Below are positions 4,365 through 43,000 of a stretch of DNA of 64,000 bases, piece after piece. Position numbers and translations under genes: made by a program. How positions within the stretch are numbered: the first letter of the stretch is position 1; each line of letters starts with the position of its first letter. The notes under the pieces are model-generated. The model saw nothing but the letters and a program-made list of their open reading frames with translations, searched no databases and was not told the origin of the DNA. Source of the DNA: a virus; IMG/VR virus record IMGVR_UViG_3300044939_000165, positions 59,105-123,104 of that record. The stretch is one strand, 5' to 3'.

Positions 4365-4454
4365 TTAACAGCTCCATTTCGGAAAGGGTTTGAGTTCGAC
4401 CGTTTTGTAATACTGGAACTTAGATGTTCGTTTGTCTTTCAGTATCTACGGCTT

Positions 4455-10320: not shown

Positions 10321-10408
10321 GATGCTCTCCTTGTAAGTGACTGAAGCGCCAGTCACAGCAGATAGTTGGTTTACCCTGTGTCTGGCGCTATGTAAAGATT
10401 TTAGCAAA
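10321..10408. promoter_or_regulatory. Divergent control region between SSB-like and sigma genes
   Basis: The 88 bases between divergent starts contain two overlapping perfect inverted repeats: 10337-10343 with 10350-10356 (GTGACTG/CAGTCAC) and 10345-10352 with 10382-10389 (AGCGCCAG/CTGGCGCT). They share bases and cannot form together. They could be operators or alternative leader-RNA folds. No confident -35/-10 pair was identified. Confidence 0.5.
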
Positions 10409-11233
10409 ATGTCTAAGACAACGAGCGCGCTGCTAGATCTGCATTTCCGCGATGTGGGCAACCATCCCATCCGAACGGCGCAAGAGGAGCATACTCTATT
10501 CACAGCATACCAAGAAGCACGAACACGTGCAGAGTTAGCGACCAACCCAGTCGAACGTGAGCAGTTCCAAAAACTGCGTGATACGTTGCGCAATGCGATC
10601 GCAAGTGGTTACTACCGTTTTGTAATCAAACAAGCGAGGCGCAAAGCGCACGACGACGCATTGTTCGCCGAACTGCTTTCGGCAGGCTATGAAGGGTTAC
10701 TCCATGCAATCACGCTATTTGACCCTGCGCGCGGTAATCGCTTTCTCACGTACGCAGCGAACTGGGTCAATGTAAAAATGCAAGAAGTCATTTACCGGAT
10801 GCGAACGGTTCACGTTCCAAACCACACCCGGAAAGCGATGCGGCGCACACGTGTCGAAAAAGAAAGAAAGCAAGTACTCGGTGAGCCCGTCGAAGACTTC
10901 GAAGAACCTTCAATCGCGTCGATTGACAACGTTGTAATTATAGATGACAACGTCGACATCGAAAGCGACGTTCAACGCCGACGCGTAGACCCCCTAGCCC
11001 TACTAGCGCAAGCACAGCTAACGCGAGTTGAGCGGCTAGTATTGATCTACGCGTTTGGACTTCGCGGAGGTGAGCCAAAAGACGCGCGGACAATTGGTCA
11101 GATCCTGTACGAGATCGACGGTTCACAAATGACTGCCGCGCGCGTGGAAGGAATACAAAAACGCGCTCTCAATCGTCTACGAGCTCATCTCTCTGAAGAA
11201 GAGATCAAGAGCCTCGCAGATATACTTAGTTAA
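10409..11233 (+). CDS. Sigma-70-family RNA polymerase sigma factor
   Basis: From ATG 10409 (MSKTTSALLDL) the product is 274 residues. A GTG at 10337 would add 24 residues but lacks a clear RBS. The region 2 core is plain: GYEGLLHAITLFDPARG, then FLTYAANWVNVKMQE and RTVHVPNHTRKA, matching the core-binding, -10-recognition and region 3 start of group 1-3 sigma factors. Near the C-terminus, LTRVERLVLIYAFGLRGG and a helix ending RALNRLRAHLSEEE fit region 4, which reads the -35 element. It is the only plus-strand gene in the first 16.3 kb, divergent from the replication operon and ending 3 bases from the convergent ParB-like gene. With an encoded RNA polymerase at 18667-26209, it is the obvious candidate specificity subunit, though it could also redirect the host enzyme. 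Confidence 0.92.
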   Translation: MSKTTSALLDLHFRDVGNHPIRTAQEEHTLFTAYQEARTRAELATNPVEREQFQKLRDTLRNAIASGYYRFVIKQARRKAHDDALFAELLSAGYEGLLHAITLFDPARGNRFLTYAANWVNVKMQEVIYRMRTVHVPNHTRKAMRRTRVEKERKQVLGEPVEDFEEPSIASIDNVVIIDDNVDIESDVQRRRVDPLALLAQAQLTRVERLVLIYAFGLRGGEPKDARTIGQILYEIDGSQMTAARVEGIQKRALNRLRAHLSEEEIKSLADILS

Positions 11234-16339: not shown

Positions 16340-16366
16340 GTGTTACTTCTTTCGGTTAGAGACGCA

Positions 16367-18088
16367 ATGACCATCGACAGCGGAGTGAACTATGACGATA
16401 TGCTGCTGGGTTTCGGAGGACGTCATGCGATGTCGCATGCGAACCCCATGTTTGACTACTTAACGGGGTTTGTACCTCGGAAGCTCAAAGACCTGTTCAA
16501 ATGGGCAGAATACCTTGGATTCCATTCAGCGCATATTTACGGCGTAGTCCGTAAATTCGGCGAATACCCAATCACACGATTCATTTACGAATCGAATTCG
16601 GATGAAGAAAAAGCGCGCCACAAAAGACTCTTCGAAGAAACTCTACGACTCAAAGGCTTTCTAACGCTAGTAAGCTACGACGTCTGGCTATATGGCAACG
16701 CGTTCGTTTCAGTTTATGAGCCGATCAAACGCGAACTGGTATGTGAGTACTGCGGCACACGAGAAGACATCTCAGCGGCATCATACAAATTCAATCTCCC
16801 GAAACTTCAATTCACGCACGACTGCAAGCAGTGTAAACGCAAAGGTGTGATCTCAAAGGTTGAAGACTACAAACTCAAAGACCCTACTAAGCTCACACTA
16901 ATTCGATGGGATCCAAAATTAATTGACATTGAACACAACCGAGTCACTGGCGAAAGTGTCTATTACTACCAGATCCCACGCGATGACATAGCAAAGGTGC
17001 GAGCCGGCAACAAAACATTCATCAATCACATGCCGATGGAGATCTTGCGCGCAATGCAAGAGCGCAAGACTTTTCGATTTGATGAAGGTTCACTTTATCA
17101 TCTAAAAATGCCAGGACCTGCTGGTGTACAAGCTCAATGGGGATTTCCTCCAATCACGAGTGCAATTAAAAATTTCCTCTTTACAGCAATACTTCGACGA
17201 GCAAATGAAGCGATTGCACTCGAATACATCACACCATTTAGAATCATCCATCCAATAGCGGCTAGCGGACAAGGAGACCCTATTACGACCATTCCACTTG
17301 ATCGTTGGAAAATGGAAATGGAACGTAACTGGCGATTGTTCCGTCGAGATCCGCTACGTATTCAATTTTCGCCTGTACCTGTCGGCGTTCAGAACATTGG
17401 CGGTGAAGGTCGTGCGTTGCTCACTCTCGGCGAACTACAAGAAGCTGAAAGAGCAATTGTACTTTCACTCGGCGTACCGATGGAGTTTCTTACAGGGGGT
17501 CTTGGGCAAACCCGAGGTGAAATCACATTGCGAATGATTGAAAACCAACTACAAACACATATTGAAAATCTCAACGCACTCATCCAGTGGATTGAACGCA
17601 AAGTTGCACAATTCATGGGTTGGGCGTCAATCAAAATGCGCCTTGCTGATTTCAAAATGATTGACGACATCGAAAATAAACAACTCAAAATTCAACTATG
17701 GCAAAGCCAACTAATTTCGAACACCACAATGGCAGAAATGCTTGACATTGATCTTGATCATGAACGTAAACAGCGACGCGAAGATACTCTAGCCGACACT
17801 CGGGCTGAACAAGAAACCCAAGTTGCACTTCAAAAACTTCAACAATCACTTTCAATACAAGCACAGCAACAAGCGCTTCAATCGCGGAGCAGTTTCGCGT
17901 ACGATCAACAGGCAATCATCGCCAAAGCACAACCAATCGCTGAAGAACTAGCACAATACGACGCAGGTACAAGGCGTTCACGGCTTGATTCACTCAAAGG
18001 CGAAGACTTCATTATGTACTGCATCACAAAAGAATTGCTACAACAAATAGAGCAAAACCAATTGGCTTACATGAAGGCGCAGGGTTGA
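16367..18088 (+). CDS. Portal protein
   Basis: From ATG 16367 (MTIDSGVNYDD) the product is 573 residues; a GTG at 16340 is an alternative. Portal proteins form the dodecameric ring at one capsid vertex through which DNA is packaged. Portal-like features are the N-terminal FDYLTGFVP segment, WLYGNAFVSVYEP, IRWDPKLIDIEH, GFPPITSAIKNFLFTAILRR, and SLGVPMEFLTGGLGQTRGE followed by long helices. CEYCG and CKQCKRKG form a zinc-binding insert. The C-terminus is Gln-rich and coiled-coil-like. It opens the long plus-strand virion block. No terminase gene precedes it here. Confidence 0.8.
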   Translation: MTIDSGVNYDDMLLGFGGRHAMSHANPMFDYLTGFVPRKLKDLFKWAEYLGFHSAHIYGVVRKFGEYPITRFIYESNSDEEKARHKRLFEETLRLKGFLTLVSYDVWLYGNAFVSVYEPIKRELVCEYCGTREDISAASYKFNLPKLQFTHDCKQCKRKGVISKVEDYKLKDPTKLTLIRWDPKLIDIEHNRVTGESVYYYQIPRDDIAKVRAGNKTFINHMPMEILRAMQERKTFRFDEGSLYHLKMPGPAGVQAQWGFPPITSAIKNFLFTAILRRANEAIALEYITPFRIIHPIAASGQGDPITTIPLDRWKMEMERNWRLFRRDPLRIQFSPVPVGVQNIGGEGRALLTLGELQEAERAIVLSLGVPMEFLTGGLGQTRGEITLRMIENQLQTHIENLNALIQWIERKVAQFMGWASIKMRLADFKMIDDIENKQLKIQLWQSQLISNTTMAEMLDIDLDHERKQRREDTLADTRAEQETQVALQKLQQSLSIQAQQQALQSRSSFAYDQQAIIAKAQPIAEELAQYDAGTRRSRLDSLKGEDFIMYCITKELLQQIEQNQLAYMKAQG

Positions 18089-18666: not shown

Positions 18667-21600
18667 ATGAGTGCACCAACGCCCGTACTGACCAGCGCAG
18701 CTACACTTCGCCAAAAACTGCACGAAAAGACAACTAAGGCGTTAACTACTGTTTTCCCCCTTGAACTCAAGGGTAAAACGCTGGAAATCAAAGATGTACG
18801 TGTAAATTCACAAGATTTTGCACCATCGGACGAATACAACGCACTTATGAAAGGTTCATCACTTTATGAACCAGTCAAAGGCACACTTGTACTTAAAGAC
18901 GCAAACGGAAAAATTCTCGACGAAGCAAAAAACTTTACGCTAGCGCACATACCGTACTTAACATCGCGCCACACCATCATCGTAGATGGCAACGAATATC
19001 AAATTGCAAACCAATTACGCCGCAAACCGGGAGTTTACACCCAGCGAGCTGACAACGGCGAACTCAAAACAGTATTCAACCTCGGGCGCGGAAAAAACTT
19101 CAATCTCACATTTAATCCTGATAAAGGAACATTCTACCTTCAATATGGTACGTCAAATTTGCCTCTTTACGCCGTATTGCGAGGCCTTGGCGTTGAGCAC
19201 AGCCAAATTGCTAAGCACTTAGGCGAAGGCGTAGCGCGCGCCAATGAAAAAGAGTACGGACACCAAATTGCGCCAACAATTAACAAGCTTTACACAAAGC
19301 TAGAGCATCCAGCTGTGCTGGATCCAAACGCGTCACATGAAGCAAAAGTCGAAGCTATCAAAAAGCACTATAACCAATCAACGCTTGATCCTGAAGTAAC
19401 GAGCGAAACACTTGGTTCTGCGCACACTAAGGTCGCACCTGAGACGCTGCTTAGCGCTGCGAAGAAAATACTCGATGTCCATGCTGGCAAAGCGCAAGTT
19501 GATGACACTGACTCACTAAAATTCAAAACATTTCATGCGCTTGATGATTTCATCTCAGAACGAATTCGTCTGTCCTCTCGTCAATGGATACCTAAAGCAA
19601 AACTAGCACTAACAAACAAAAACGTAATCCGAGACGCCCTTAAACCTGCGCCGTTCTCGGATGCAATCCGTAAGTTCGTCACAACATCGTCACTTTCTAG
19701 CGTTCCCATGGGAATCAATCCAATGGAAATCATCGATCACGCAGTGAAAGTGACGAGTCTCGGTGAAGGCGGAATTCCCTCAGACCGCGCAATCCCCCTG
19801 GACGCGCGCATGATCCACAACACGCACTTTGGTGCACTGGATCCAATTCGCACACCTGAATCAAACCACTCAGGTGTAGATATTCGGGCAACAATTGCCG
19901 CGCACCGTGACGACAAAGGTAACCTCTACACAGTACTACGCAATGTAAAGACTGGTAAAGAGGAATTTATACGAGCTGGCGACTTGCACAAATATGTCGT
20001 TGCGTTTCCTCACCAAGAACTCAAAGGCACAGTCGACGCATTCGTCAATGGCAAACAAACACGTGTACCTGCAAGTCAGGTGACACACCAACTTGATCAC
20101 GTCAAGTACATGTACTCACCAGCAACAACGCTAATCCCATTGATCCACTCAATCCAAGGTAACCGCGCGATCATGGGATCCAAGATGGGCACGCAAGCGT
20201 TGCCGCTCGTGGAGCGCGAAGCACCACTTGTGCAAGTTAAATCACATCATCCAGATGGCCATTCATTTGAAACAATTTATGGCCATATGATCGTGCCGAC
20301 TGCACCGGTTTCGGGGACCGTCGCGAAGATCGACAATCAATTCATATACATTAAGCCACATGCTGAAAAACGAGCAGCAGCAGGCGACGCTGGACTCATT
20401 AAGGTGCCCTACTATCAAAAATTTCCGTTTCCTTCGAAAACGTTCCTAGATCACACTGTCAGCGTAAAGCCTGGTGACAAAGTTAAAGAAGGTCAGCGCC
20501 TTGCAGAGTCAAACTACACGCGTAACAGTGTGCTTGCATTAGGCAAAAATCTACTCGTTGGATACTTACCGTACTACGGCTACAACTCAAACGATGCCGT
20601 CGTAATTTCGGAGTCCGCAGCGCGAAAACTAACCAGCGAACACATGTATCGCGAGGTTTTTCCGATTAGTACGGGCACCGAACTGAACCGTGCAAAGCAT
20701 CAACTTTACTACGGTGCTAAATACCCCGCGTCAATGTACAGTAAACTCGATGAGAGCGGTGTAATCAAAAAAGGCACAAAAGTTGATCCGAAAGACTTAC
20801 TTGTAGCGGGCCTAATGAAACAATCTGTAACTGGTACCGACGCCATACTTGGGCGTCTTAGTAAATCACTTGTCAAACCATTCAAAGACATCGCACTGAC
20901 TTGGGAACACAGTGTGCCTGGTGAAATTATCGATGTAGTACGCTCAAATAAACAAATTACAATCCTTGTAAAAACACGCGAACCTATGCAAATTGGCGAC
21001 AAGCTCGCAGGTCGCTACGGTAATAAGGGTGTCGTCGCCAAAATCGTACCAGACCACGAAATGCTGCGTGATGAACAAGGGCGTCCACTTGATCTGTTAA
21101 TGACGTCGGCCGGAGTCGTATCACGTATCAACCCCGCGCAAATTATTGAAACAGCTGTTTCAAAAGTCGCTGAAAAAACAGGAAAACCAATCGTATATGA
21201 CAACACGGCAGGCCATGACGCTGTCAAATGGGCCCGTGACCTACTGAACAAACACGGCGTCAAAGACAAAGAAGTACTCTACGATCCAATACTCAAACGT
21301 AAAATTATTGGGCCCGACAGCAAAGGCGTACTAGTCGGTAAACAGTATATTTATAAACTGTTCAAAAGTACTGACACCAATTTCTCTGGTCACGGTGTCG
21401 GACCCTATGACATCAACGAACAGCCTCTCAAGACTGGGGGAGACGAAAGCGCTAAAAGCATCGGTAAAATGGAATTTGATGCGCTGCTCGCACACAACGC
21501 ACGCAGCTTTCTGCGCGAAGCAACAACAGTTCGTGGTCAAAAGAACGATGAATATTGGAAAGCCGTGCAAATGGGATTGCCGCTACCAGAACCAAAGCCA

Positions 21601-23166
21601 TCGTTTGCCTTCAATAAGTTTATTGGAATGCTAGAAGGCGCAGGCGTAAAGGTAGATAAGCGTGGTTCAAAATTCTCGCTACTACCAATGACTGACAAAG
21701 ATGTGCTAACGCGCAGTTCGGGAGCAATCGAAAATAACACAACGGTGCGCGCGAAAGATCTCAAACCAATGCCCGGCGGTCTATTTGATCCTCGTAAGAC
21801 CGGCGGTCTACAAGGCGCACTTTTTTCTCATATTGATTTGCACGAGCCTATCCCAAATCCTGTATTCGAAGAGCCCGTACGCCGTCTGCTCGGCATGACT
21901 GAAACACAATTCAGGACCGCACTGCGAACTAACGGGGGTGCATGGTTTCGCCATGAACTCTCGAAGATCGATGTACCGCGTAAACTTCGTGAACTACGTG
22001 AACAGCTCAAAACCGCCAAAGGAGCTGCGCTCGACGATGTAGTCAAGCAAATCAAATACTTAGAAGCACTTCAAAAGCATAATTTAAACCCCGCCGACGC
22101 CTACGTGATCAGCAAGGTACCAGTCATTCCTCCAGTATTCCGTCCAATTTTGCCAAGCGTTCACGATCCGTCGCAACTAATGGTATCCGACGTAAATAAA
22201 CTCTACAGTCAACTTCTTGATTCGAACAAAACGCTGAAGACAACAGCTGTACCATCAGATTTAGGCAAACATCGTTTGGATCTCTACGAAAAAGTCGAAG
22301 AGCTATATGGTATAGCGCTGCCTCGCGACCCAAAACTTCAACAACAGAAAGTTAAAGGCTTACTTGCAAATATTTCAGGCGTCGGTACACCAAAAGGAGG
22401 TTTTTTCCAGCGTAAGCTAATGCGTCATACACAAGATGTATCGGGACGTGGTACTGCTGTACCCGATTCAAACTTGAGTATGGACGAAGTTGGTATTCCG
22501 GAGGATATGCTGTGGCAGGCACTTGACAAACTAATTGTCGCGCGGTTGATCCGCACCGGTTACCCTGCGCTCCAAGCGCGTGAACTAGTCAATGAACGCG
22601 CGCCTGCCGCGCGAAATGCGCTGTTGGAAGAAATTCGCGAGCGCCCAGTACTTATCAATCGAGCGCCCACACTGCATCGAGGGTCGATTATCGCTGCGTA
22701 CGCTAAACCCGTACCCGGCAAAACAATACGCGTGTCCTCATTCGCCGAAAAAGGTATGAACCTAGACTACGACGGTGACACTTTGCAGGTACACTTCCCA
22801 ATCGGTCCTGAAGCTGTGCAAGAAGCTAAGCAAATGACTCTTAGCAACCTATTGTTAAGTGATCAACAACGGAACAAACTTATGGTCTTTCCGCAACACG
22901 AAGCTATCATCGCATTCACGCTCGCATCAAAACACACAATTCCTACTGGACCAGTGCGCAAATTCAAAACGAGAGAAGACGCACTCGCAGCATATCGACG
23001 TGGCGAATTGAAGCTATCAGACGCTATCGAAATTGAAAACGAAACCGAAAAGCGCGCTGATAACTATAGTGAAGGACCACACCTCACTGCGCCAGTTTAT
23101 TCCATTAGCCCTGACGAAGCCTTATTCTATTTTCCGCCAGAGTTGCTGACAGGCGTAAATAACTAA
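18667..23166 (+). CDS. rpoB-rpoC: RNA polymerase beta subunit fused to N-terminal part of beta'
   Basis: The 1499-residue product (ATG 18667, MSAPTPVLTSA) combines two subunits. Residues 1 to ~990 follow beta: HIPYLTSRHTIIVDGNEY, the rifampicin-region equivalent DPIRTPESNHSGVDIRATI, NRAIMGSKMGTQALP, GDKLAGRYGNKGVVAKI with the active-site lysines, and the C-terminal SIGKMEFDALLAHNAR. From ~1005 it follows beta': LTRSSGAIENNT, LKPMPGGLFDP, VIPPVFRPIL, DVSGRGTAV, RPVLINRAPTLHRGSI, and the catalytic NLDYDGD (D1367, D1369, D1371) that binds Mg2+. The N-terminal zinc ribbon of beta' is missing. Beta is about 350 residues shorter than in E. coli. The chain ends after the metal motif; the rest of beta' is at 24410-26209. 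With the encoded sigma factor this should transcribe phage genes. Neighbours are virion genes. Confidence 0.97.
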   Translation: MSAPTPVLTSAATLRQKLHEKTTKALTTVFPLELKGKTLEIKDVRVNSQDFAPSDEYNALMKGSSLYEPVKGTLVLKDANGKILDEAKNFTLAHIPYLTSRHTIIVDGNEYQIANQLRRKPGVYTQRADNGELKTVFNLGRGKNFNLTFNPDKGTFYLQYGTSNLPLYAVLRGLGVEHSQIAKHLGEGVARANEKEYGHQIAPTINKLYTKLEHPAVLDPNASHEAKVEAIKKHYNQSTLDPEVTSETLGSAHTKVAPETLLSAAKKILDVHAGKAQVDDTDSLKFKTFHALDDFISERIRLSSRQWIPKAKLALTNKNVIRDALKPAPFSDAIRKFVTTSSLSSVPMGINPMEIIDHAVKVTSLGEGGIPSDRAIPLDARMIHNTHFGALDPIRTPESNHSGVDIRATIAAHRDDKGNLYTVLRNVKTGKEEFIRAGDLHKYVVAFPHQELKGTVDAFVNGKQTRVPASQVTHQLDHVKYMYSPATTLIPLIHSIQGNRAIMGSKMGTQALPLVEREAPLVQVKSHHPDGHSFETIYGHMIVPTAPVSGTVAKIDNQFIYIKPHAEKRAAAGDAGLIKVPYYQKFPFPSKTFLDHTVSVKPGDKVKEGQRLAESNYTRNSVLALGKNLLVGYLPYYGYNSNDAVVISESAARKLTSEHMYREVFPISTGTELNRAKHQLYYGAKYPASMYSKLDESGVIKKGTKVDPKDLLVAGLMKQSVTGTDAILGRLSKSLVKPFKDIALTWEHSVPGEIIDVVRSNKQITILVKTREPMQIGDKLAGRYGNKGVVAKIVPDHEMLRDEQGRPLDLLMTSAGVVSRINPAQIIETAVSKVAEKTGKPIVYDNTAGHDAVKWARDLLNKHGVKDKEVLYDPILKRKIIGPDSKGVLVGKQYIYKLFKSTDTNFSGHGVGPYDINEQPLKTGGDESAKSIGKMEFDALLAHNARSFLREATTVRGQKNDEYWKAVQMGLPLPEPKPSFAFNKFIGMLEGAGVKVDKRGSKFSLLPMTDKDVLTRSSGAIENNTTVRAKDLKPMPGGLFDPRKTGGLQGALFSHIDLHEPIPNPVFEEPVRRLLGMTETQFRTALRTNGGAWFRHELSKIDVPRKLRELREQLKTAKGAALDDVVKQIKYLEALQKHNLNPADAYVISKVPVIPPVFRPILPSVHDPSQLMVSDVNKLYSQLLDSNKTLKTTAVPSDLGKHRLDLYEKVEELYGIALPRDPKLQQQKVKGLLANISGVGTPKGGFFQRKLMRHTQDVSGRGTAVPDSNLSMDEVGIPEDMLWQALDKLIVARLIRTGYPALQARELVNERAPAARNALLEEIRERPVLINRAPTLHRGSIIAAYAKPVPGKTIRVSSFAEKGMNLDYDGDTLQVHFPIGPEAVQEAKQMTLSNLLLSDQQRNKLMVFPQHEAIIAFTLASKHTIPTGPVRKFKTREDALAAYRRGELKLSDAIEIENETEKRADNYSEGPHLTAPVYSISPDEALFYFPPELLTGVNN

Positions 23167-23179
23167 AACGAGGACTCTA

Positions 23180-23665
23180 ATGTTCGACTTCTTAGATGAC
23201 TTACTTGACCCTACAAAATCAAAGTCCTTTGAAAACGCCACGCCAGCAATGTGCGCGCATGTCTCGCGCCTCCAGGACATTCTAACAAAGAAGTATTCGT
23301 TACTACTTGCGTACATTCACTACGGCGACCAGTTACGAGCGTTTTATCGCGACGGGATCTACCAACATTTCCAAGACCACATCAAAGAAGAGCGTGAATC
23401 TATATATAAATTGAACAAGAAGATCACAGCGCTTGGCGCAGACGCACACGCCAATCCGTCACCTCCAGCGATTGTCGGACTAAATGACCCTCGTGCGGTA
23501 TTCAAAACACTACTCTCTATGGAACTTGAAGTTGTAGCTAAATGGTCAGAGCTATTCCGAGCAACTACCAATGACGTAGCACTCAACGCCTTAGCACAAG
23601 AAGGTGCCTTCATAGATCAACAGCACGCTGACGATATGCGCCGCTACCTTCGGAGTGGATGCTGA
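23180..23665 (+). CDS. Ferritin-like protein
   Basis: This 161-residue, mostly helical protein resembles ferritin-like four-helix proteins. One helix has LLLAYIHYGDQLRAFY, followed by HFQDHIKEERESIYKL, then a central MELEVVAKWSELF and a last QEGAFIDQQHADDMRRYL. Glu and His occur at plausible di-iron positions, but I cannot confirm the full ligand set. It could store iron, protect DNA like Dps, or be a structural protein using the fold. It lies between the two RNA polymerase genes and overlaps the next start (TGATG). The sequence ACTAAAACGAGGA before it also precedes the gene at 29169. Confidence 0.6.
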   Translation: MFDFLDDLLDPTKSKSFENATPAMCAHVSRLQDILTKKYSLLLAYIHYGDQLRAFYRDGIYQHFQDHIKEERESIYKLNKKITALGADAHANPSPPAIVGLNDPRAVFKTLLSMELEVVAKWSELFRATTNDVALNALAQEGAFIDQQHADDMRRYLRSGC

Positions 23666-24042
23666 TGGCAGATTTAAATAACATTGTACGCGGCATAACT
23701 ACACGACTAAAAAAACGTCAAAGAGGCTTTCACTTCGAAAAAGACCCAGGCTTTTACGGCGTAACAAAAAGCTTCAACACTGCTGCAAGACAAAAATTTG
23801 CTAACGAAGTTAGAGCGCGTGCAATCCGCAAAGTTGCTACTAAATACGCTCTGCTTGATGAGTCTGGTGAACCAATCGAAGCGCTTGCTAAACTTTTCTC
23901 TGAAAATAATTTTGGCTACGGTGACACTCCAATAACCCCAAAACGGACAGGTGATCCAATTTGGGGTGCCTCTATGGGGTTACCAAATGAACCTGGTGAT
24001 CGCAACGGGCTAAGTCCTAACATTTCGTACGGAGGAGTTTGA
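23665..24042 (+). CDS. Basic hypothetical protein between RNA polymerase genes
   Basis: 125 residues from ATG 23665, whose A is the last base of the previous stop. The N-terminal half is strongly basic (RGITTRLKKRQRGFHF) and the middle has the helix ARAIRKVATKYALLDESG, a form of a motif seen in four nearby proteins. The C-terminus is Gly/Pro/Asn-rich. The next gene starts at 24042 on the last base of its stop. It may be an internal virion or DNA-binding protein; no family recognised. Confidence 0.65.
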   Translation: MADLNNIVRGITTRLKKRQRGFHFEKDPGFYGVTKSFNTAARQKFANEVRARAIRKVATKYALLDESGEPIEALAKLFSENNFGYGDTPITPKRTGDPIWGASMGLPNEPGDRNGLSPNISYGGV

Positions 24043-24377
24043 TGCTTACGAAAAAAGCACTTGATAACGCACGAGCACGTGGAGCTTATAAAATCTTGAC
24101 CCTTTACGGCCTGAATAAAATTGGTAACGTACTTTCTACACTCGGCAACGCAGCAACACGCGCATGGACTACTGGTGCCAAAGCATATCAGCGTGGACGC
24201 GGCGGTATGATGCAAAATCTTGGTAAAGGCATTGCAGCTGGTGCTAAGGCGTTTCAGCGAGCAGGTGGTTTGCCGGCTGCGGGCAAAGCTCTCGGCGCTG
24301 CGGCAGCCACTGGCGCAGCAGCATATGGTGCAGGTCGAGTGTTCGGAGCAGGGCAAAGAGCCTCATTTCAACAATAA
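24042..24377 (+). CDS. Small Ala/Gly-rich membrane-active-type protein
   Basis: 111 residues from ATG 24042, with GGAGGAG just upstream. The N-terminal helix includes AYKILTLYGLNKIGN. The rest is basic and Ala/Gly-rich (GAAAATGAAAYGAGR), like a glycine-zipper segment that can insert into a membrane. Similar Gly/Ala zippers occur in several proteins at 26.9-37.8 kb and at 48936. It is part of the three-gene insert between RNA polymerase pieces. Function unknown. Confidence 0.65.
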   Translation: MLTKKALDNARARGAYKILTLYGLNKIGNVLSTLGNAATRAWTTGAKAYQRGRGGMMQNLGKGIAAGAKAFQRAGGLPAAGKALGAAAATGAAAYGAGRVFGAGQRASFQQ

Positions 24378-24409
24378 CATGCGCCACTGAGAACACGTAG
24401 TCTTTGCCT

Positions 24410-26209
24410 ATGGCGACGACAGTTGGACATTTTTTAATCAATGATGTAATGCCTAAGGGCTACGAAATCCGTGGCCCAATTACAAACAAAGAACTACATG
24501 ACCATCTTGTCAATCTTGCCAAAACTGACCCACAAAAATACGTTTCAACAATACAAGCACTTAAACGACGTGGGGACGAAATTGCAACGCTTGAAGGAAT
24601 TTCCGTCGGTTTAGACGACATCGAGCCTAATTACAAAGAACGTGATGCTATCATTCGTCCCGCACTTGCAAAACTTGAAAAACTCAAAGACCCAACAGCG
24701 CGTCAACGATTGATTGTTGAAACACAAGAGAAACTACTCGCTCATACTAAAAAACACCCCGGTTCAATGACACATATGGCATTATCTGGCGCGCGCGGGA
24801 ATCCAGCCCAACTTATGAAAATTGTCGCAACGCCGCTTGCAACAGTGCACCCTAAACATGGCGTGATTCACCAACTAATTGATCGATCTTACGCCGAAGG
24901 ACTCACTCCAGCGCAGTACTGGATGACTGGCCCAGAAATCCGCGAAAACGAAGTTAAGGCTCGCATTTCAGTATCGGAGCCTGGCGAAATGGCCAAAGTA
25001 CTCGTTGCAAACACTATTTCCACTGTTGTGACGACAACTGACTGCGGAACCATGAACGGCGTAAAGATGTCAATCGATGACAGCCATATCCTAGACCGAT
25101 TTACACAGGCTGATCATGGTTTACCCCGCAATACTCTAGTCACGCCACAGATTGTTCAACAACTAAAAGCCAAACATGTTGATCGTCTACTTGTACGCTC
25201 ACCTATGACGTGCATCGCTCAAAGCGGTGTTTGCCAAATGTGCCAAGGGCACAATGAAAAAGGAAAATTACACCAAATAGGTACGCCTGTCGGCGTACGA
25301 GCCGCGCAAGCTATGGCTGAACCGTTAACACAGATGGCGCTTTCATCACGTCACGGTACACTTACAATCAAATCAACGAATAAATTTCCAACAGGACTAA
25401 AAGGTGTACGCCAATTATTAGAAGTGCCCGCATCATTTCGACATGAAGCAGTTCTCGCTCCTGAGCATGGAACTATAACGAAAATTGAGAAAGCCCCGCA
25501 AGGAGGGCACTACATCTATATTGGCGAAAAGAAAGTATATACCCATCCTGACCTAACATTGCGTGTAAAAAAAGGTGACGTGGTTGAACGCGGTGACGCG
25601 CTAACCGATGGCGTGCCTCATCCTGCAAAAATAGTCGGATATAAAGGCCTCGGTGCTGGACGCGCGTATTTTGTTGACGCAATGCACAACCTCTACAAAA
25701 ACGAGGGCATTAATCTTGATCGACGTCATCTCGAACTACTTGCAAAAAGTGAAATTAATCATGTACGTCTACTTGACACAGATCCAAACCACCCTGAACT
25801 ACTAAAAGGCGACATTATCAACTATAACGCCTTTCGCGAAGCCTATCGCGAAGGATCAACGCGCGTACCGCTAGATAATGCTGTCGGACAGCGACTTGGA
25901 CAAGAAGTGCTGCATCATACCGTTGGTACTCTTATTACGCCTGCTCTAGCACGAGAACTAGCCTCACATGGCGTAACTGAGGTTTACATCAATCGCAGCA
26001 TGCCCCCAGTTGAATTCGTAATGAAACCATTTACTATGAATCCTTTGTTAGAAAAGGATTGGATGGCGCGTCTTGCTCACCGTTATCTCAAAAATACAAT
26101 CCTAGAAGCCGCACATTTTGGTGAAACTTCAAACATTCACAGCACACATCCCGTACCAGCATATGCTTACGGCGCGGAATTCCGTCATGGTTCCAGTGGT
26201 ACATTCTGA
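24410..26209 (+). CDS. rpoC: RNA polymerase beta' C-terminal part
   Basis: From ATG 24410 (MATTVGHFLINDV) this 599-residue protein continues beta' where the fusion protein stops. TTVGHFLINDVMPKG matches the E. coli TTVGRALL region. Near residue 128 comes ALSGARGNPAQLMKI. The second zinc site is complete: TTDCGT and CIAQSGVCQMC (~268). GVRAAQAMAEPLTQMALSS and RHG cover the trigger-loop region with the catalytic His kept. The bridge-helix segment, normally almost invariant (GARKGL and DTAL), is strongly changed here (TGPEIRENEVKA). The C-terminal GYKGLGAGRAYFVDAM, LAKSEINHVRLLD and a terminal clamp-like helix follow. There is no clear SD. Together with the gene at 18667 it supplies the catalytic core; alpha and omega are not seen. 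Confidence 0.95.
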   Translation: MATTVGHFLINDVMPKGYEIRGPITNKELHDHLVNLAKTDPQKYVSTIQALKRRGDEIATLEGISVGLDDIEPNYKERDAIIRPALAKLEKLKDPTARQRLIVETQEKLLAHTKKHPGSMTHMALSGARGNPAQLMKIVATPLATVHPKHGVIHQLIDRSYAEGLTPAQYWMTGPEIRENEVKARISVSEPGEMAKVLVANTISTVVTTTDCGTMNGVKMSIDDSHILDRFTQADHGLPRNTLVTPQIVQQLKAKHVDRLLVRSPMTCIAQSGVCQMCQGHNEKGKLHQIGTPVGVRAAQAMAEPLTQMALSSRHGTLTIKSTNKFPTGLKGVRQLLEVPASFRHEAVLAPEHGTITKIEKAPQGGHYIYIGEKKVYTHPDLTLRVKKGDVVERGDALTDGVPHPAKIVGYKGLGAGRAYFVDAMHNLYKNEGINLDRRHLELLAKSEINHVRLLDTDPNHPELLKGDIINYNAFREAYREGSTRVPLDNAVGQRLGQEVLHHTVGTLITPALARELASHGVTEVYINRSMPPVEFVMKPFTMNPLLEKDWMARLAHRYLKNTILEAAHFGETSNIHSTHPVPAYAYGAEFRHGSSGTF

Positions 26210-26873: not shown

Positions 26874-29054
26874 ATGTCAACTCTATTTACTCGCACATTT
26901 CTCAAGGGCATGGCTGACGGCATGTCCGATGCTGGACGCATGGCGCCTTTTGCAGATGACGACCTCGCCATCGGAGTCTTCGATAAAATTTCAACTGACC
27001 TCGGCCTACCACAGATCCTAGAAGGACCGCTGCCGAACGATGCCTACATCAAGATCGGCCAATGGCTCATCGACGCATCAGATGAGGCAGTAAGGCGCGG
27101 CTATGGGCCCTCCGCCTCGGTCCAAGCGATGGCAAAGCAGGCATCCTATATGCCGTTAGAAGAGCGAGCAATGAAAATTGCCTCCTACATGATGGCCAAA
27201 ACCGCAGAAGAAGCGTCACTAAACGATACTGGACCTAACACGCTAGAGAGCGCAGCGGAAACTAACGCACTCGCTGATCTCGACGAAGAAAATCGATCGT
27301 CGCTCCAATACCTTGTAGGCGCAGGTAACACCGACATGCCTGAAGGCGGTGTAGTCGGTAGGCAAATTCCTCACCCAATGGCTCCGAAAGGCCCCGCGAT
27401 CGACAACAGCCTCACGCACTTAGATAAACAATCGAGTGAAAAGATTGCGCGAGCTGTGCTGTTTATTCAAGACCTCGCTGCACGTGAAGCACCCGTGACG
27501 CCAAAGCTTGTTCTTGCGTCAGCAGCGCTTGCTGAAGGGGGTCCTCCTGGCCTTGAAACGATGGCCCACATTGTTGAGAACGTAAAGACTGCCGAAGAAC
27601 TCGATAACACTCTTGATCACGTACTAGATAAACAACAAGAGCATGGCGTTGAACCTGATCCAGAGCTCGTTGCAGCGATTGAACAGGTACTCGCGGATCA
27701 CGGTTTGATTGATGAGGATTACGACGATGACAGTGACGATGACAGTGACTATGACAGCGACGACGAAGCAAAAGTCGCCGCTGCAAAGGATGTAATGAAG
27801 AAAATTCGAAGCGCTGCACGTAGCGCAGGTAAAGCAATCCGACGTGCAGCAATTAAGACTAAAAACACCCTAGGAACGGCAGCTTCAAAGGTTAAGAGAC
27901 AGGCAGCTAGGGCTGGAACAGCAGTTGGAAGAGCGGCCAAGAGGCATGGTCCTGGAGCCGCTGTTGGTGCAATTCTGGGCGCAGCTGGCGGTGCTGCTGC
28001 AATGCATGCTTTGCATAATCGGGACGTGGACCAAGATGTAGAAGAAGATGTTTCAGAGGAAGCTGAAAAAGTCGCGCGCGCCACAATGTTCGTAGAAGGT
28101 CTCGCCAATCGCGAAGCACCTGTGACGCCAAAGCTTGTTCTTGCGTCAGCAGCGCTTGCCGAGGCAGGTACTCCTGGCCTCGAAGTAATGGCGCATATTA
28201 TGCAAAACGTAAAAACGGCTGAAGAACTTGACAACACTATTGATGACGTACTGGATGCACAAGAAGAGCATGGCGCTAAACCAAATACAAAACTTGTTTC
28301 TGCGGTCGCACAAGAACTCGCAGATCGAGGTTTGATTGATGAAGACAATGACTATGAACCTGATGAAAACGACGACGCAAAAGTCGCCGCTGCAAAGGAT
28401 GTAATGAAGAAGATTCGAAGCGCTGCACGTAGCGCAAGTAAAGCAATCCGACGTGCAGCAATTAAGACTAAAAACACCCTAGGAACGACAGCTTCAAAGG
28501 TTAAGAGACAAGCAGCTAGGGCTGGAGCGGCAGTCGGAAGAGCGGCCAAGAGGCATGGTCCTGGAGCCGCTGTTGGTGCAATTCTGGGCGCAGCTGGCGG
28601 TGCTGCTGCAATGCATGCTCTGCATAATCGAGGCGCGGACCAAGAAGAGCAAGAGTTCGATGAAAACGAATACGAAAAAGAAGCACAGCTTCTCGAAGTG
28701 TTGAAAGCAGCAGCAGACGGTTCACTGAATGAAGTGGACGAAAATACACTTGAAGATGCAGCGGAATACAATGCCAACGCTGAACTCGACAAAGAAAATC
28801 GCGAACCCGACGAATACATCACAGACAACGGTGAAACTGATATGCCAAATGTCGGGCAAGTTGGCGCTTTGCTAAATGCGCGTAACAATAAACGCGTAAA
28901 CTTTGAAGAAAAAGTAAAAGCTGCGGCCGCAAAGTGGGGTGGTTTACTCCCTGCAACGATGTCACAAAAAGAAAAACGTGCTCACGTAATTGCACTTGCT
29001 GGTATGCCTGAAGAACTGCGGGCAGGTTACATTGCGCAGCTGCGCCAAGAATGA
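26874..29054 (+). CDS. Modular protein with histone-H1-like basic repeats and glycine zippers
   Basis: The 726-residue protein contains a module of ~203 residues twice. Each has an acidic helical part (VTPKLVLASAALAE, then VKTAEELDNT and an Asp-rich end), a strongly basic part (AAAKDVMKKIRSAARS, IRRAAIKTKNTLG, KVKRQAARAG), and a Gly/Ala hydrophobic zipper (GAAVGAILGAAGGAAA). The basic part looks like histone H1 or bacterial H1-like proteins; the zipper could insert in a membrane. The N-terminal ~150 residues are acidic and helical. A third copy, more diverged, is in the next gene. Possible roles are DNA condensation in the capsid or an ejected internal protein; both are inference. It sits among virion genes. 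Confidence 0.75.
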   Translation: MSTLFTRTFLKGMADGMSDAGRMAPFADDDLAIGVFDKISTDLGLPQILEGPLPNDAYIKIGQWLIDASDEAVRRGYGPSASVQAMAKQASYMPLEERAMKIASYMMAKTAEEASLNDTGPNTLESAAETNALADLDEENRSSLQYLVGAGNTDMPEGGVVGRQIPHPMAPKGPAIDNSLTHLDKQSSEKIARAVLFIQDLAAREAPVTPKLVLASAALAEGGPPGLETMAHIVENVKTAEELDNTLDHVLDKQQEHGVEPDPELVAAIEQVLADHGLIDEDYDDDSDDDSDYDSDDEAKVAAAKDVMKKIRSAARSAGKAIRRAAIKTKNTLGTAASKVKRQAARAGTAVGRAAKRHGPGAAVGAILGAAGGAAAMHALHNRDVDQDVEEDVSEEAEKVARATMFVEGLANREAPVTPKLVLASAALAEAGTPGLEVMAHIMQNVKTAEELDNTIDDVLDAQEEHGAKPNTKLVSAVAQELADRGLIDEDNDYEPDENDDAKVAAAKDVMKKIRSAARSASKAIRRAAIKTKNTLGTTASKVKRQAARAGAAVGRAAKRHGPGAAVGAILGAAGGAAAMHALHNRGADQEEQEFDENEYEKEAQLLEVLKAAADGSLNEVDENTLEDAAEYNANAELDKENREPDEYITDNGETDMPNVGQVGALLNARNNKRVNFEEKVKAAAAKWGGLLPATMSQKEKRAHVIALAGMPEELRAGYIAQLRQE
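27771..28629 (+). repeat. Near-identical ~250-bp direct repeats, period 609 bp
   Basis: The basic/zipper part of the module is almost identical at the DNA level in two copies, 27771-28020 and 28380-28629, offset by 609 bp (203 codons). The acidic halves are more diverged. The near identity suggests recent duplication or gene conversion. Confidence 0.9.
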
Positions 29055-29083
29055 TCCTACATTCACAACTATTTCACCGAATA

Positions 29084-29128
29084 TGAATGCCTGTTATAGT
29101 ATGCATAGTAACAGGCATTCATTTTAAT
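29084..29128 (+). terminator. Rho-independent terminator
   Basis: A perfect 13-bp stem, arms 29084-29096 and 29109-29121 with a 12-base loop, followed by TTTTAATAAAA. It lies 30 bases after the stop of the H1-like modular gene. Confidence 0.85.
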
Positions 29129-29168
29129 AAAATAACCCCAATGTACTAAAACGAGGAACACCCCGACC

Positions 29169-30128
29169 ATGTCATGGATTACTCAAAATTCCAGACTGCC
29201 GTACTTTTACGACATCTATAACGCTGCATACAACCCAAAAGAAGCAGCTGCAAAAGATGTATTGAAAACTATTAAAAACAAAGCGCGCGCTGCGGGTAAA
29301 GCCTTAGGCCGCGCAGCATCAAAAGTTAATAAGAAGTCACGCTCATTAGGTAAATCACTTCTGCGCGCAGCTAGAAGACACGGTCCTGGGGTAGTAATCG
29401 GCGCAACGCTAGGTAGTGATCTAGTTTTCAGTCATGCTTTTAGCAAAGCTCTAGAAAGCAACGCTGCTCACAGAAAAAAAATGAGAGATGCTACTGAAAA
29501 TTTGAATAATGAGGAAACAGGTGAAAAAATCGCGCGTGCTGCGATGTTTGTAGAAAACCTTGCCAATCGAAATGCACCTGTAACACCAAAACTTGTACTT
29601 GCATCAGCAGCTCTAGCTGACAGTGGCACACCTGGCCTTGAAGTAATGGTTGATATCATTGAAAACGTAAAAACAGCAGAAGAACTCGACAACACACTTG
29701 ATCATGTACTAGATACGCATCAAGAACATGGAGTAGAACCAGACCCTGCGCTTGTTGCAGCAATCGAATATGTACTTGCTAAACATGGACTAATCGATGA
29801 TGACTATAACGTCGATGACGAAGACCATGTCCTAATTAATCCAAAAGTTGCAGCGGCAAAAGATACATTGAAAAGTCTAAAAAACAAAGCTCGTAGCGTA
29901 GGCAAAGCTATCGGACGCGCAGCCGCAAAAATTAAAGGAAAGGCAAAACGAGTGGCACGTGGAATCTATCGCCATAATAAGCCACTTATTAGCGGACTCA
30001 AAAGACACGGTATTGGCATGGCAATTGGCGCGCCGATAGGTGCTCTAACAATGTCTAAGTCTCTGGACGCAATCAAAGAACACGCAATCAGGGAGCACAA
30101 TCAAAACACACAAGAAGAAGAAGAGTGA
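29169..30128 (+). CDS. Second H1-like/glycine-zipper modular protein
   Basis: This 319-residue protein has a basic start (AAAKDVLKTIKNKARAAG, KSLLRAARRHGPG) and a complete copy of the acidic module of the preceding gene (VTPKLVLASAALADSG, VKTAEELDNTLDHVLD), followed by another basic part (LKNKARSVGKAIGRAA) and a short hydrophobic zipper. It is therefore a paralogue of the 726-residue protein with one module. It is preceded by a terminator and the sequence ACTAAAACGAGGA, and followed by another terminator, so it appears to be its own transcription unit. Confidence 0.75.
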   Translation: MSWITQNSRLPYFYDIYNAAYNPKEAAAKDVLKTIKNKARAAGKALGRAASKVNKKSRSLGKSLLRAARRHGPGVVIGATLGSDLVFSHAFSKALESNAAHRKKMRDATENLNNEETGEKIARAAMFVENLANRNAPVTPKLVLASAALADSGTPGLEVMVDIIENVKTAEELDNTLDHVLDTHQEHGVEPDPALVAAIEYVLAKHGLIDDDYNVDDEDHVLINPKVAAAKDTLKSLKNKARSVGKAIGRAAAKIKGKAKRVARGIYRHNKPLISGLKRHGIGMAIGAPIGALTMSKSLDAIKEHAIREHNQNTQEEEE

Positions 30129-36339: not shown

Positions 36340-37819
36340 CGCCATAAAGCCTTACGAAGCGCGATCACTTTGGCGCAATATCAAAACAGCGGCCGCACAG
36401 CAAGGTCCCACTTTACTTGAAGGTTTAGCTCACCTTGCATTGGACGCTTGGGCATCGAGTGACGCTGGTACTAAATTGAGTGCAGACCGCGCAACACGAG
36501 AGGCCCTCGTCACGTCGCTAGTCGGCGCCGCCATAGTTGACGAAACCCTGGATAAGCTTGCAGCCGACGGTAGCTATACACTATCTGAAATTGAATTTTT
36601 GCGCAATCTAAACGCCGAATCTGCGCTGCGAGACTTTAACCAATTTCAAAAAAATGCCAATGTTAAAATGCATATTTTGGGTGTCAATAAAACACTTAGA
36701 AAAAACCCGTGGCTAGCTACTGCCGGCGGCACTCTTGCAGGTACCACTCTTGGCGGTGCTCTCGGTGCGGGTATCGGCGCAGTTACCGACAGCGAAGATC
36801 CAGTTAGAGGAGCATTGCGTTACGGCTTAGCTGGCGCTGCAACAGGTGCAGCGCTCAATGCTCCGCTTTCAGCGCTAGTGACCCGCGAAATAACGAAAGG
36901 CAACTCACTAGCAAAAGCAATCAACAAAGCCTCGAAAAAATACTTAGCCAAATCAAGAGATTTGCTAGAAATACCAAAACTAAGTCACGAAACACACTTT
37001 AAATGGGCTAACTGGGATAAGTCAAAACTCTATAAAAAATTTATAAAAAATCCAATTATACCTAGTATAGGAGGCGCCATCACAGGCGGAATTATGGGAG
37101 CAGGCGCTGGCGCACTTGCTGATGATGATGACAGATTGCGTGGCGCGTTAAGGCTAGGTCTAATGGGCGCGGCACTAGGCGGAGCAAGCGGCTATGGCTA
37201 TGGATACTCTCTGAGAGGCCTTTCAAATAGAAACAAATTTATGCGCGACAGTTTGTCACTAGTACGAGAAGAAACTCGTAATTTGCCACAACGTAAACGA
37301 CAATTGGAAAACGCATACAAAGAAATAAGAGAAACATTGAAATCGATGAAAAAAACACAGCCAACACCGCACCTGCCAGCGGTTCAACAAGCGCCACACC
37401 CGCCAGCGGTTCAACAAGCGCCACACCCGCCAGCAGTTCAACAAGCGCCACACCCGCCAGCAGTTCAACAAGCGCCACACCCGCCAGCGAAACAACCCGC
37501 ACCGCAGCAGACAATGGTTCAACAAGCGCCACACCCGCCAGCGGTTCAACAAGCGCCGCACCCGCCAGCGGTTCAACAAGCACCGCAGCAGACAGCGACT
37601 AAGTCAACACCGATGCTGACACCTAAGGAAGAACTTATCGACACATACAACTTTAGACATAAAAACTTGGCAAGATTGGAGAAGCAACTCAAAAACGCTA
37701 AAACCCGTGAAGAAAAAGCGGAGATACAATACTGGATAAATAGTGTGAAAAAAGAAATCAAAGATATAGAAAAAGAGTTAATTGAAAAGTTTAATTTCAA
37801 ACCCTCAATAAAGGCATAA
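36329..37819 (+). CDS. Glycine-zipper membrane-type protein with HPPAVQQAP repeats
   Basis: 496 residues. Two long Gly/Ala-rich hydrophobic hairpins are present: ATAGGTLAGTTLGGALGAG with a second segment RGALRYGLAGAATG, and GGAITGGIMGAGAGAL with RGALRLGLMGAALGG. The D-P/D-R-[VL]-RGALR motif links each pair. After that come seven-plus copies of a nine-residue unit of the type A-P-H-P-P-A-V-Q-Q, then a coiled coil (NFRHKNLARLEKQLKNAK). It may be a membrane-penetrating or ejection protein. KTA is at NIKTAAAQ near the start. The TAA is followed by an in-frame extension described separately. Confidence 0.7.
   Translation: MINNAIKPYEARSLWRNIKTAAAQQGPTLLEGLAHLALDAWASSDAGTKLSADRATREALVTSLVGAAIVDETLDKLAADGSYTLSEIEFLRNLNAESALRDFNQFQKNANVKMHILGVNKTLRKNPWLATAGGTLAGTTLGGALGAGIGAVTDSEDPVRGALRYGLAGAATGAALNAPLSALVTREITKGNSLAKAINKASKKYLAKSRDLLEIPKLSHETHFKWANWDKSKLYKKFIKNPIIPSIGGAITGGIMGAGAGALADDDDRLRGALRLGLMGAALGGASGYGYGYSLRGLSNRNKFMRDSLSLVREETRNLPQRKRQLENAYKEIRETLKSMKKTQPTPHLPAVQQAPHPPAVQQAPHPPAVQQAPHPPAVQQAPHPPAKQPAPQQTMVQQAPHPPAVQQAPHPPAVQQAPQQTATKSTPMLTPKEELIDTYNFRHKNLARLEKQLKNAKTREEKAEIQYWINSVKKEIKDIEKELIEKFNFKPSIKA
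37376..37599 (+). repeat. In-frame 27-bp tandem repeats
   Basis: About eight copies of a 27-bp unit containing CCAGCGGTTCAACAAGC encode a Pro/Gln/His repeat. Copies are very similar, and two are replaced by a Pro/Gln variant (CACCGCAGCAGACA type). Confidence 0.9.
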
Positions 37820-37840
37820 TACGTAAGTAATGCATACAAC

Positions 37841-37969
37841 GTGTTCGATAAAAACAGAACACTTGACAAAAATCGACTTCGAAGTGCATTGCGTGTCGGT
37901 GCGCCTGCTATGTTACTAGGTGCTACACACCGCATGCACAACGCTGTCGTCCTTAGCGCTGTGTGTTAA
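37841..37969 (+). pseudogene. Possible decayed remnant of the glycine-zipper repeat
   Basis: After the TAA at 37817-37819 the same frame stays open to 37969 and reads FDKNRTLDKNRLRSALRV, then GAPAMLLGATHR. This resembles DDDRLRGALRLGLMGAALG in the preceding protein. A GTG at 37841 would give 42 residues but has no SD. It looks like a remnant of a third copy or a lost C-terminal end; a short expressed protein is possible. Confidence 0.4.
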
Positions 37970-42076: not shown

Positions 42077-43000
42077 ATGTACAACACTGAAACGGTCCAG
42101 GCCAACGCGACCGCACTGAATCAAAAATTTGTAAGTCTGCTTAGTTCTGGAAATACTAAGCTCGCAGAAGAAGCTGGCACAGCATTTATCCGTAGCATCG
42201 TCCGTCAAGAAGCAGCGGTTCGCATGATTTTGCCTCCGCAACCCTTGCAAGACGATGAACTTGACCGCGACGTTGACTCAGATGAGCCGCGAAAAATCGT
42301 AGAAAAAGAACCCGATTCCGCGGCCACATACGTACAATTCGACGGCACACCTCGTGCACGTTGGTTTAGAGGCAAGAGATACGCAGTTTACTTCGGCAAA
42401 ACACAAAGTGATCTGTTCACGAAGTCGAAGTTCAAACTGATGACGTATCAAAACGACATTCGAAAAATCCTTGCAGACAACTCTGTAAAGGATCTCGCTG
42501 ACCAAGAAGATCTGTACTTCCGTCGTACATGCCTCACACTCGTAAACCGCAATGCGGCGAATCAACGTACGCACGTAAGCGCGTTTACAAACGGTGCATT
42601 TGTAAAGGGGTTTCAAGCGATGGATAACCGTCGCCGCCCCATTGGAAAAATGCTGATGACCCTTTCGCTGTACCGCGAAGCGATGAATCTTCCAGCGACA
42701 CTTATCGGAGACTCAATCGCACGCAAACATTATGAAGAAGGCATCGACAAAGAAGAGCGTCTCTGGGGCATTCCAGTAATCACAACTGCGAAAACGGACA
42801 TCTATAACCCACGCGAGTGTTGGATCTTCAGTCCACAGAACTTCCTGGGAAACTTCTTCCTTCTCCAGGACGCGACGCTCTTCATTGAGCAACGCGCAGA
42901 CATCATTACATTCTTCTCCTACGCAGCGCCCGGAATTGGCATCGGCAACGCCGAGTCAATGCAGCAGTTGGTATTCGACCAACTTCCCTCCTCAATTTGA
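42077..43000 (+). CDS. Major capsid protein candidate
   Basis: 307 residues (MYNTETVQANATALN), with GGGAGA-type RBS. The sequence has an N-terminal helix, then VRQEAAVRMILPPQPL, an extended acidic loop, YVQFDGTPRARWFRGKRY, and a long helix region (FTKSKFKLMTYQNDIRKIL), consistent with an HK97-fold shell protein; the fold itself is inferred. ITTAKTDIYNPRECWIFSPQ resembles the end of such proteins. Position after scaffold and decoration genes is typical. Confidence 0.65.
   Translation: MYNTETVQANATALNQKFVSLLSSGNTKLAEEAGTAFIRSIVRQEAAVRMILPPQPLQDDELDRDVDSDEPRKIVEKEPDSAATYVQFDGTPRARWFRGKRYAVYFGKTQSDLFTKSKFKLMTYQNDIRKILADNSVKDLADQEDLYFRRTCLTLVNRNAANQRTHVSAFTNGAFVKGFQAMDNRRRPIGKMLMTLSLYREAMNLPATLIGDSIARKHYEEGIDKEERLWGIPVITTAKTDIYNPRECWIFSPQNFLGNFFLLQDATLFIEQRADIITFFSYAAPGIGIGNAESMQQLVFDQLPSSI

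Follow-up and report, generated by a model that had tools for sequence, protein, structure and literature searches.

The tailed phage behind IMG/VR record IMGVR_UViG_3300044939_000165 encodes a bacterial-type multisubunit RNA polymerase (RNAP) in which the whole of beta is fused to the front of beta', while the rear of beta' is a second chain encoded by a separate gene. We analysed a 64,000-nucleotide stretch of this record (positions 59105-123104 of 123,104 bases), here called the window, in whose coordinates positions are given unless stated otherwise. The architecture is an unrecognised form of phage multisubunit RNAP and is already present in public genomes of isolates. We consider it probable that the enzyme is a two-chain, alpha-free virion polymerase with its own sigma factor, and that its history ran from fusion to cut. 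The RNAP genes, their parts and the genes between them are:

18667..23166, + strand: long RNAP chain, 1,499 aa, with complete beta and the N-terminal catalytic part of beta' (residues ~1077-1460); no cysteine
18667..21666, + strand: beta moiety, residues 1-1000, with GYNSNDAV and QIGDKLAGRYGNKG active-site motifs (RpoB/Rpb2 matches)
21667..21894, + strand: short beta-to-beta' join, residues 1001-1076; the zinc ribbon and its four cysteines are absent
21895..23046, + strand: N-terminal part of beta', residues 1077-1460, with clamp helices and double-psi barrel (matching RpoC 160-518 and gamma subunit 196-573)
22759..22779, + strand: catalytic NLDYDGD motif, residues 1365-1371, read from the sequence
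23047..23163, + strand: non-homologous C-terminal tail of the long chain, last ~39 residues, otherwise present only in close relatives
23180..23665, + strand: ferritin-like (Dps-type) gene (Pfam PF00210, E 1.6e-10)
23659..24377, + strand: two small open reading frames of unknown function
24413..26209, + strand: short RNAP chain, 598 aa (601 from TTG 24404), the C-terminal part of beta', beginning at TTVG, with bridge helix, trigger loop and Zn2 cysteines

The long reading frame opens at TTG 18658 or ATG 18667 and ends at 23166, and its 1,499 residues are counted from the ATG. Along it, Pfam domains follow in the order Rpb2_2, Rpb2_3, Rpb2_6 (E 1.7e-44), Rpb1_1 and Rpb1_2 (E 2.7e-20). Residues 25-997 align to E. 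coli RpoB 52-1338, and residues 1077-1425 to RpoC 160-518. A preliminary description of this DNA had proposed that one chain carries all of beta and beta' through the NxDxDGD motif, and these comparisons bear it out; the catalytic motifs, NLDYDGD in beta' and GDKLAGRYGNKG in beta, are intact by sequence. Ordered beta and beta' domains together with NxDxDGD and the paired lysine motif mark a bacterial-type multisubunit RNAP, and the window polymerase has them all. At the join, ~160 residues of beta' are replaced by ~80, and the N-terminal zinc ribbon of beta' is called missing because the long chain lacks cysteine altogether. The AlphaFold model of this chain, which covered residues 850-1499, is weak (predicted local distance difference test, pLDDT, 68.6) and still matches beta' and cyanobacterial gamma chains; given its low confidence, the junction is supported by the alignments.

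The short chain likely starts at ATG 24413, or else at TTG 24404. It matches E. coli RpoC 721-1331 in BLAST, and its N-terminus aligns at TTVGR, where the second gene had been said to begin. It keeps the four Zn2 cysteines and the histidine region of the trigger loop, and its AlphaFold model (pLDDT 80.1) retrieves bacterial beta' chains in the PDB with E about 1e-29. Since the ferritin-like gene sits between them, the two chains are separate genes. In E. coli beta' numbering, homology of the long chain stops at ~548-552 and the short chain starts at ~570-572. Cyanobacterial and plastid RpoC2 starts at ~589, and RpoC1 extends beyond TTPGR. The phage cut is ~20-40 residues upstream of the cyanobacterial one, a near but not identical position, in keeping with the earlier estimate of a few tens of residues. 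A separate beta and a cut downstream of TTxGR, at about E. coli 588, which define the RpoC1/RpoC2 arrangement, are not found in the window polymerase. Full-fusion relatives bridge the cut point with only ~5 residues, for example VEVGSHRTTGGR.

Searching GenBank phages with tblastn revealed the same fusion in Salmonella phage Arash (OQ632216) and in Vibrio phages D69, D148 and D181. The Arash fusion, gp206, is 35.9% identical over 97% to the window long chain, and the C-terminal beta' (beta'-C) chains are 30% identical; in Arash this chain is gp216, encoded ~5 kb downstream of gp206 with other genes between. All four phages share with the window phage the two-chain layout, the synteny of helicase, portal, fusion, beta'-C and capsid genes, and both sigma genes. 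Public annotation names their chains plain beta, beta' or hypothetical, and the fusion and cut went unremarked. As a separate observation, in D181 (L015 8974-14488; L numbers are our locus labels) and D148 a homing endonuclease gene breaks the fusion gene inside beta.

The preliminary description left room for a cellular source, but the window genome belongs to a tailed phage: it encodes portal, terminase, major capsid and tail sheath proteins as well as DNA polymerase A and sigma factors. Three of its genes matter for what follows:

16340..18088, + strand: portal protein, the upstream neighbour of RNAP conserved across all three layouts described below (32% to Arash portal gp204; profile search)
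10337..11233, + strand: second sigma-70-like factor, counterpart of Arash gp196 (PF04542 E 5e-8; PHROG 351 E 5.8e-26; 31% to Arash)
42077..43000, + strand: major capsid protein, 41% to Arash gp226, with a homologue in 18 of 18 lineage genomes

Dozens of IMG/VR contigs emerged from the metagenome search for the same fusion that had been recommended. A fusion with a separate beta'-C occurs at 41 loci (duplicates removed, the window counted, two with an interrupted beta part), a single beta-beta' chain, usually ~1,950-2,200 aa, at 32, and a three-gene form (beta, beta' N, beta' C) at three; 13 further loci, where contig ends interfered, were left unassigned to a layout. In relatives, the gap between the two chains is 0.5-7 kb and contains other genes on either strand. 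A portal gene of the window type lies close by in 30 of the 41 fusion-plus-cut, 26 of the 32 full-fusion and all three three-gene loci, and because this homologous neighbour accompanies every layout we treat the three as one phage lineage. Genes for portal, RNAP, capsid, terminase, tail and sigma are common to the window phage and Arash and are similarly ordered. The features by which we delimit an Arash-like lineage, namely the fusion with separate beta'-C, an adjacent portal gene, and shared major capsid protein, terminase large subunit and virion sigma, are all found in the window phage.

No cellular genome combined fusion and cut among the 80 best matches from the 84,980 cellular genomes searched, and phage-type sequences there were confined to phage-like contigs (Desulfovibrio piger, L107; bins of metagenome-assembled genomes, L108-L111 and L122). 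The preliminary description knew of no cell with both traits; the combination itself is not unique, since phage isolates and dozens of IMG/VR contigs have it. The L107 fusion chain (2884-7341) is on a 9.3-kb contig of a D. piger isolate assembly, hinting that the lineage may reach hosts beyond Gammaproteobacteria. Single chains of 2,600-2,800 aa that look like cellular beta-beta' fusions also came to light in metagenome-assembled genomes of a UBA1278 proteobacterium, Ratteibacteria and Caldisericota (L121, L177 and L185), outside the textbook cases of Helicobacter and Wolbachia.

RNAP chains of relatives frequently contain insertions. Intein-like elements (C...GN, some with LAGLIDADG domains) occur at catalytic motifs of the long chain in L003, L019, L009, L011, L037, L039, L043, L048, L062, L068, L083, L099 and L106, and of the short chain in L062. 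The sites are after window residues 398 (RTPES) and 780 (IGDKL), near 820 and 933, at the beta' DGD and in the short-chain trigger loop; the window RNAP chains have none. Another insertion, in beta after window residue 569, is an inorganic-pyrophosphatase-like domain (PF18823, E 2.6e-31 in L005), carried by L005, L018 and L019 and probably by L030-L033 and L044, with a different domain at the same site in L006. The sequence match suggests that pyrophosphate removal may be built into these polymerases.

How did the layouts arise? Trees were built with 62 bacterial references, and the mixture-model analysis added the cyanobacterium Synechococcus 7942 (PDB chains). The phage polymerases form one clade apart from bacteria (support 100), all cut forms form one clade (SH-aLRT 99.9), and the outermost phage branch is a full fusion, L122 (support 100). 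In every case the three-gene form comes out as sister to the Arash group, and the Synechococcus sequence groups with Bacillota and not with the phages. A single clade of all full fusions including L122 was rejected by the approximately unbiased (AU) test (p 6e-7). We favour, as the most economical order, fusion first, the cut next and a further cut last: beta and beta' would most likely have been fused at the outset, a single cut of beta' behind the catalytic barrel would have followed, with beta and the N-terminal part of beta' parting again in one sub-branch. Beta' was probably cut within a phage polymerase that was already fused, rather than inherited in cut form from cyanobacteria.

Alpha (PF01193) and omega (PF01192) are absent from all 18 large records of the lineage, which include three deposited genomes of isolates, and cellular controls were positive. 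A sigma-like protein is encoded in the baseplate gene cluster of the window phage at record positions 37170-37868, outside the window; homologues occur in 17 of the 18 large genomes, and it corresponds in place to Arash gp10. The 1,499-residue long chain and this 232-residue sigma both have zero cysteines, and replication and packaging enzymes of the same phage contain 0.7-2.6%. Lineage-wide, the fusion chain is nearly cysteine-free, a trait it shares with the virion sigma and several structural proteins; in the same phages, cysteine mostly makes up ~1-2.5% of DNA polymerase, helicases, terminase and reductase. Full fusions mostly retain ~4 cysteines, fitting the Zn2 site.

Direct data on virions come from Arash. 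In sucrose-gradient-purified particles, gp206 gave the most spectra of any protein (3,516), with 128 unique peptides and 100% coverage, and gp216 (1,210 spectra) and sigma gp10 (467) are present as well (PMC10585845). Spectra per residue for gp206, gp216 and gp10 are ~2.3, 2.0 and 2.0, rough values that are only suggestive. The same particles yielded 1,148 spectra of gp217 (L024 1262-2680), a cysteine-free DNA helicase encoded just after beta'-C and a possible partner of the virion RNAP; no homologue of it was found in the window.

We propose that the multisubunit RNAP core has been reduced in these phages to two chains, the first comprising beta and the front of beta' and the second contributing the bridge helix, the trigger loop and the rear of beta'. 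With neither alpha nor omega encoded, the beta-beta' fusion would make the alpha-dimer assembly platform unnecessary, and the two chains may assemble unaided. Promoter specificity would come from the sigma-like protein of the baseplate cluster, to judge by its sequence and place. Core and sigma would be packaged in the virion, as the Arash mass spectrometry indicates, and would accompany the DNA into the cell, there to transcribe early genes independently of the host polymerase. Later promoters are probably reached by the same core with the second, non-virion sigma (10337-11233). A broader reading, that this is a self-assembling alpha-free virion holoenzyme of an ancient family-level lineage, with layouts repeatedly remodelled around a single-chain ancestor and an independent cut of cyanobacterial type, we put forward tentatively, as plausible but a little short of probable.

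Several observations weigh against this proposal. Absences from the window record alone weigh little, since it is an incomplete contig of 123 kb, and the model covering the fused half is of low confidence, as noted above. Regions upstream of genes yielded no shared promoter motif, only weak 6-mers, of which AAGGAG is Shine-Dalgarno-like. Fusion-first depends on the single outermost sequence, L122, and single-domain FastTrees disagree on internal rooting. A clade of the full fusions minus L122 stays compatible with the data (AU p 0.59), and because these may equally well form a sister clade we call the direction of change favoured and go no further. Spectral counts are not linear, and the virion evidence is from a relative at ~35% identity, whose authors remarked that high abundance during infection might account for carry-over (PMC10585845).

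So, does the polymerase act from the virion? If its presence in particles were passive carry-over, it would act only after synthesis in the cell, on middle or late genes. This is a serious alternative, in line with the concern of the Arash authors, with the existence of two sigma factors of which one is unreported in virions, and with the location of the RNAP genes in a neighbourhood of head and portal genes, a class usually expressed late. We nonetheless judge it unlikely, given that the fusion is the most detected protein of purified particles, that the sigma gene lies within the baseplate cluster in a conserved fashion, and that the cysteine depletion resembles that of virion proteins. Rather less likely is a hybrid enzyme, in which the phage chains would recruit host alpha and omega or a host sigma. 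The phages lack alpha and omega, and the cellular enzyme requires alpha to assemble, but phiKZ/AR9-type polymerases function without alpha (PMC7598289), the step of joining beta to beta' is needless once they are fused, and the phage has a dedicated sigma.

As for the cut, descent from a cyanobacterial donor, which would make it homologous to the RpoC1/RpoC2 split, has been hypothesized for phiKZ-like phages (PMC7598289). The position is nearly the same, and a clade of phages plus cyanobacterium is statistically tolerated (AU p 0.10). Yet the cyanobacterial sequence sides with Bacillota, the sites are ~20-40 residues apart, and uncut single chains are outermost and widespread in the same lineage, so we give this origin little credence. 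For a metagenomic contig, a false join of beta to beta' or a false break in beta', made in assembly or by a frame error, was a natural worry, and the preliminary description had named such an error as what could overturn its reading. The same arrangement recurs in independent relatives, ~40 contigs and four isolates in which entire genes separate the chains; this excludes a frame error, and peptides cover 100% of the Arash gene product; we consider an artefact practically inconceivable. Nor do we see any real prospect that the beta' halves are rejoined, by a split intein after translation or by an intron after transcription. Inteins are common in the chains of relatives, but the short chain opens directly with beta' sequence and has no C-intein, and the intervening 0.5-7 kb holds genes on either strand; trans-splicing was rejected on these grounds.

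The two-chain polymerase resembles several known enzymes in part. Cyanobacteria and plastids likewise make beta' in two pieces, divided behind the catalytic barrel, but their beta is separate, alpha is present and the cut is ~20-40 residues further downstream. In Helicobacter and Wolbachia, beta and beta' are in one chain, as in the window, but beta' is uncut, the enzyme is cellular and alpha is present. The crAss-like gp66 and YonO-like single-chain RNAPs combine both catalytic barrels in one phage chain, and some are virion-linked; they differ in being highly divergent, without a recognisable beta/beta' domain set. For the virion and non-virion RNAPs of phiKZ/AR9-type jumbo phages, it was noted before that beta' is divided behind the catalytic barrel, at the position of the cyanobacterial cut (PMC7598289). 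These enzymes also lack alpha, and packaging in virions would be a further shared trait, but their beta is itself split into two or more chains and unfused to beta', and the sequences are far more divergent. They have no sigma (PMC7824862), unlike the window phage with its two sigma-like genes and its whole, fused beta.

A deep-branching RNAP clade in tailed phages, mReC (multi-subunit-RNAP-encoding Caudovirales; Weinheimer and Aylward 2020), was described without mention of fusion or split (PMC7481178). Both groups are tailed phages whose RNAP can still be aligned to cellular RNAP, and the separation from bacteria seen in our trees may correspond to the branching described for mReC. The mReC filter required NADxDGD in a COG0086 protein of at least 800 aa (PMC7481178), which NLDYDGD of the window does not match. 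The mReC capsids detected belong to PF07068 (PMC7481178), the window capsid protein has no Pfam match, and PF07068 was not found in the 18 large records in a search without a positive control. As neither motif nor capsid agrees, we do not claim that the window phage belongs to mReC. With NADFDGD in 31 of 32 full-fusion relatives, mReC possibly overlaps with those members. Full-text search of open-access papers, with subscription journals and preprints outside its scope, returned no published description of the fusion-plus-cut layout.

Directly after the RNAP genes, at 26874-30128, the window phage encodes two Ala/Lys-rich proteins with glycine-zipper modules (repeats D3-D5), the 726-aa member of the pair being cysteine-free. 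They are candidate internal head or ejection proteins.

These natural, culturable phages show that an RNAP core tolerates joining into a single chain followed by a cut at a preferred site. With three layouts in one lineage, direct tests can be made of how well the enzyme tolerates fusion and fission, and of its convergence with cyanobacterial and jumbo-phage polymerases. If the alpha-free virion holoenzyme reading is true, this would be, to our knowledge, the first sigma-dependent RNAP packaged in a virion, and such a sigma-using, alpha-free polymerase would bridge cellular RNAP and the sigma-less enzymes of jumbo phages.

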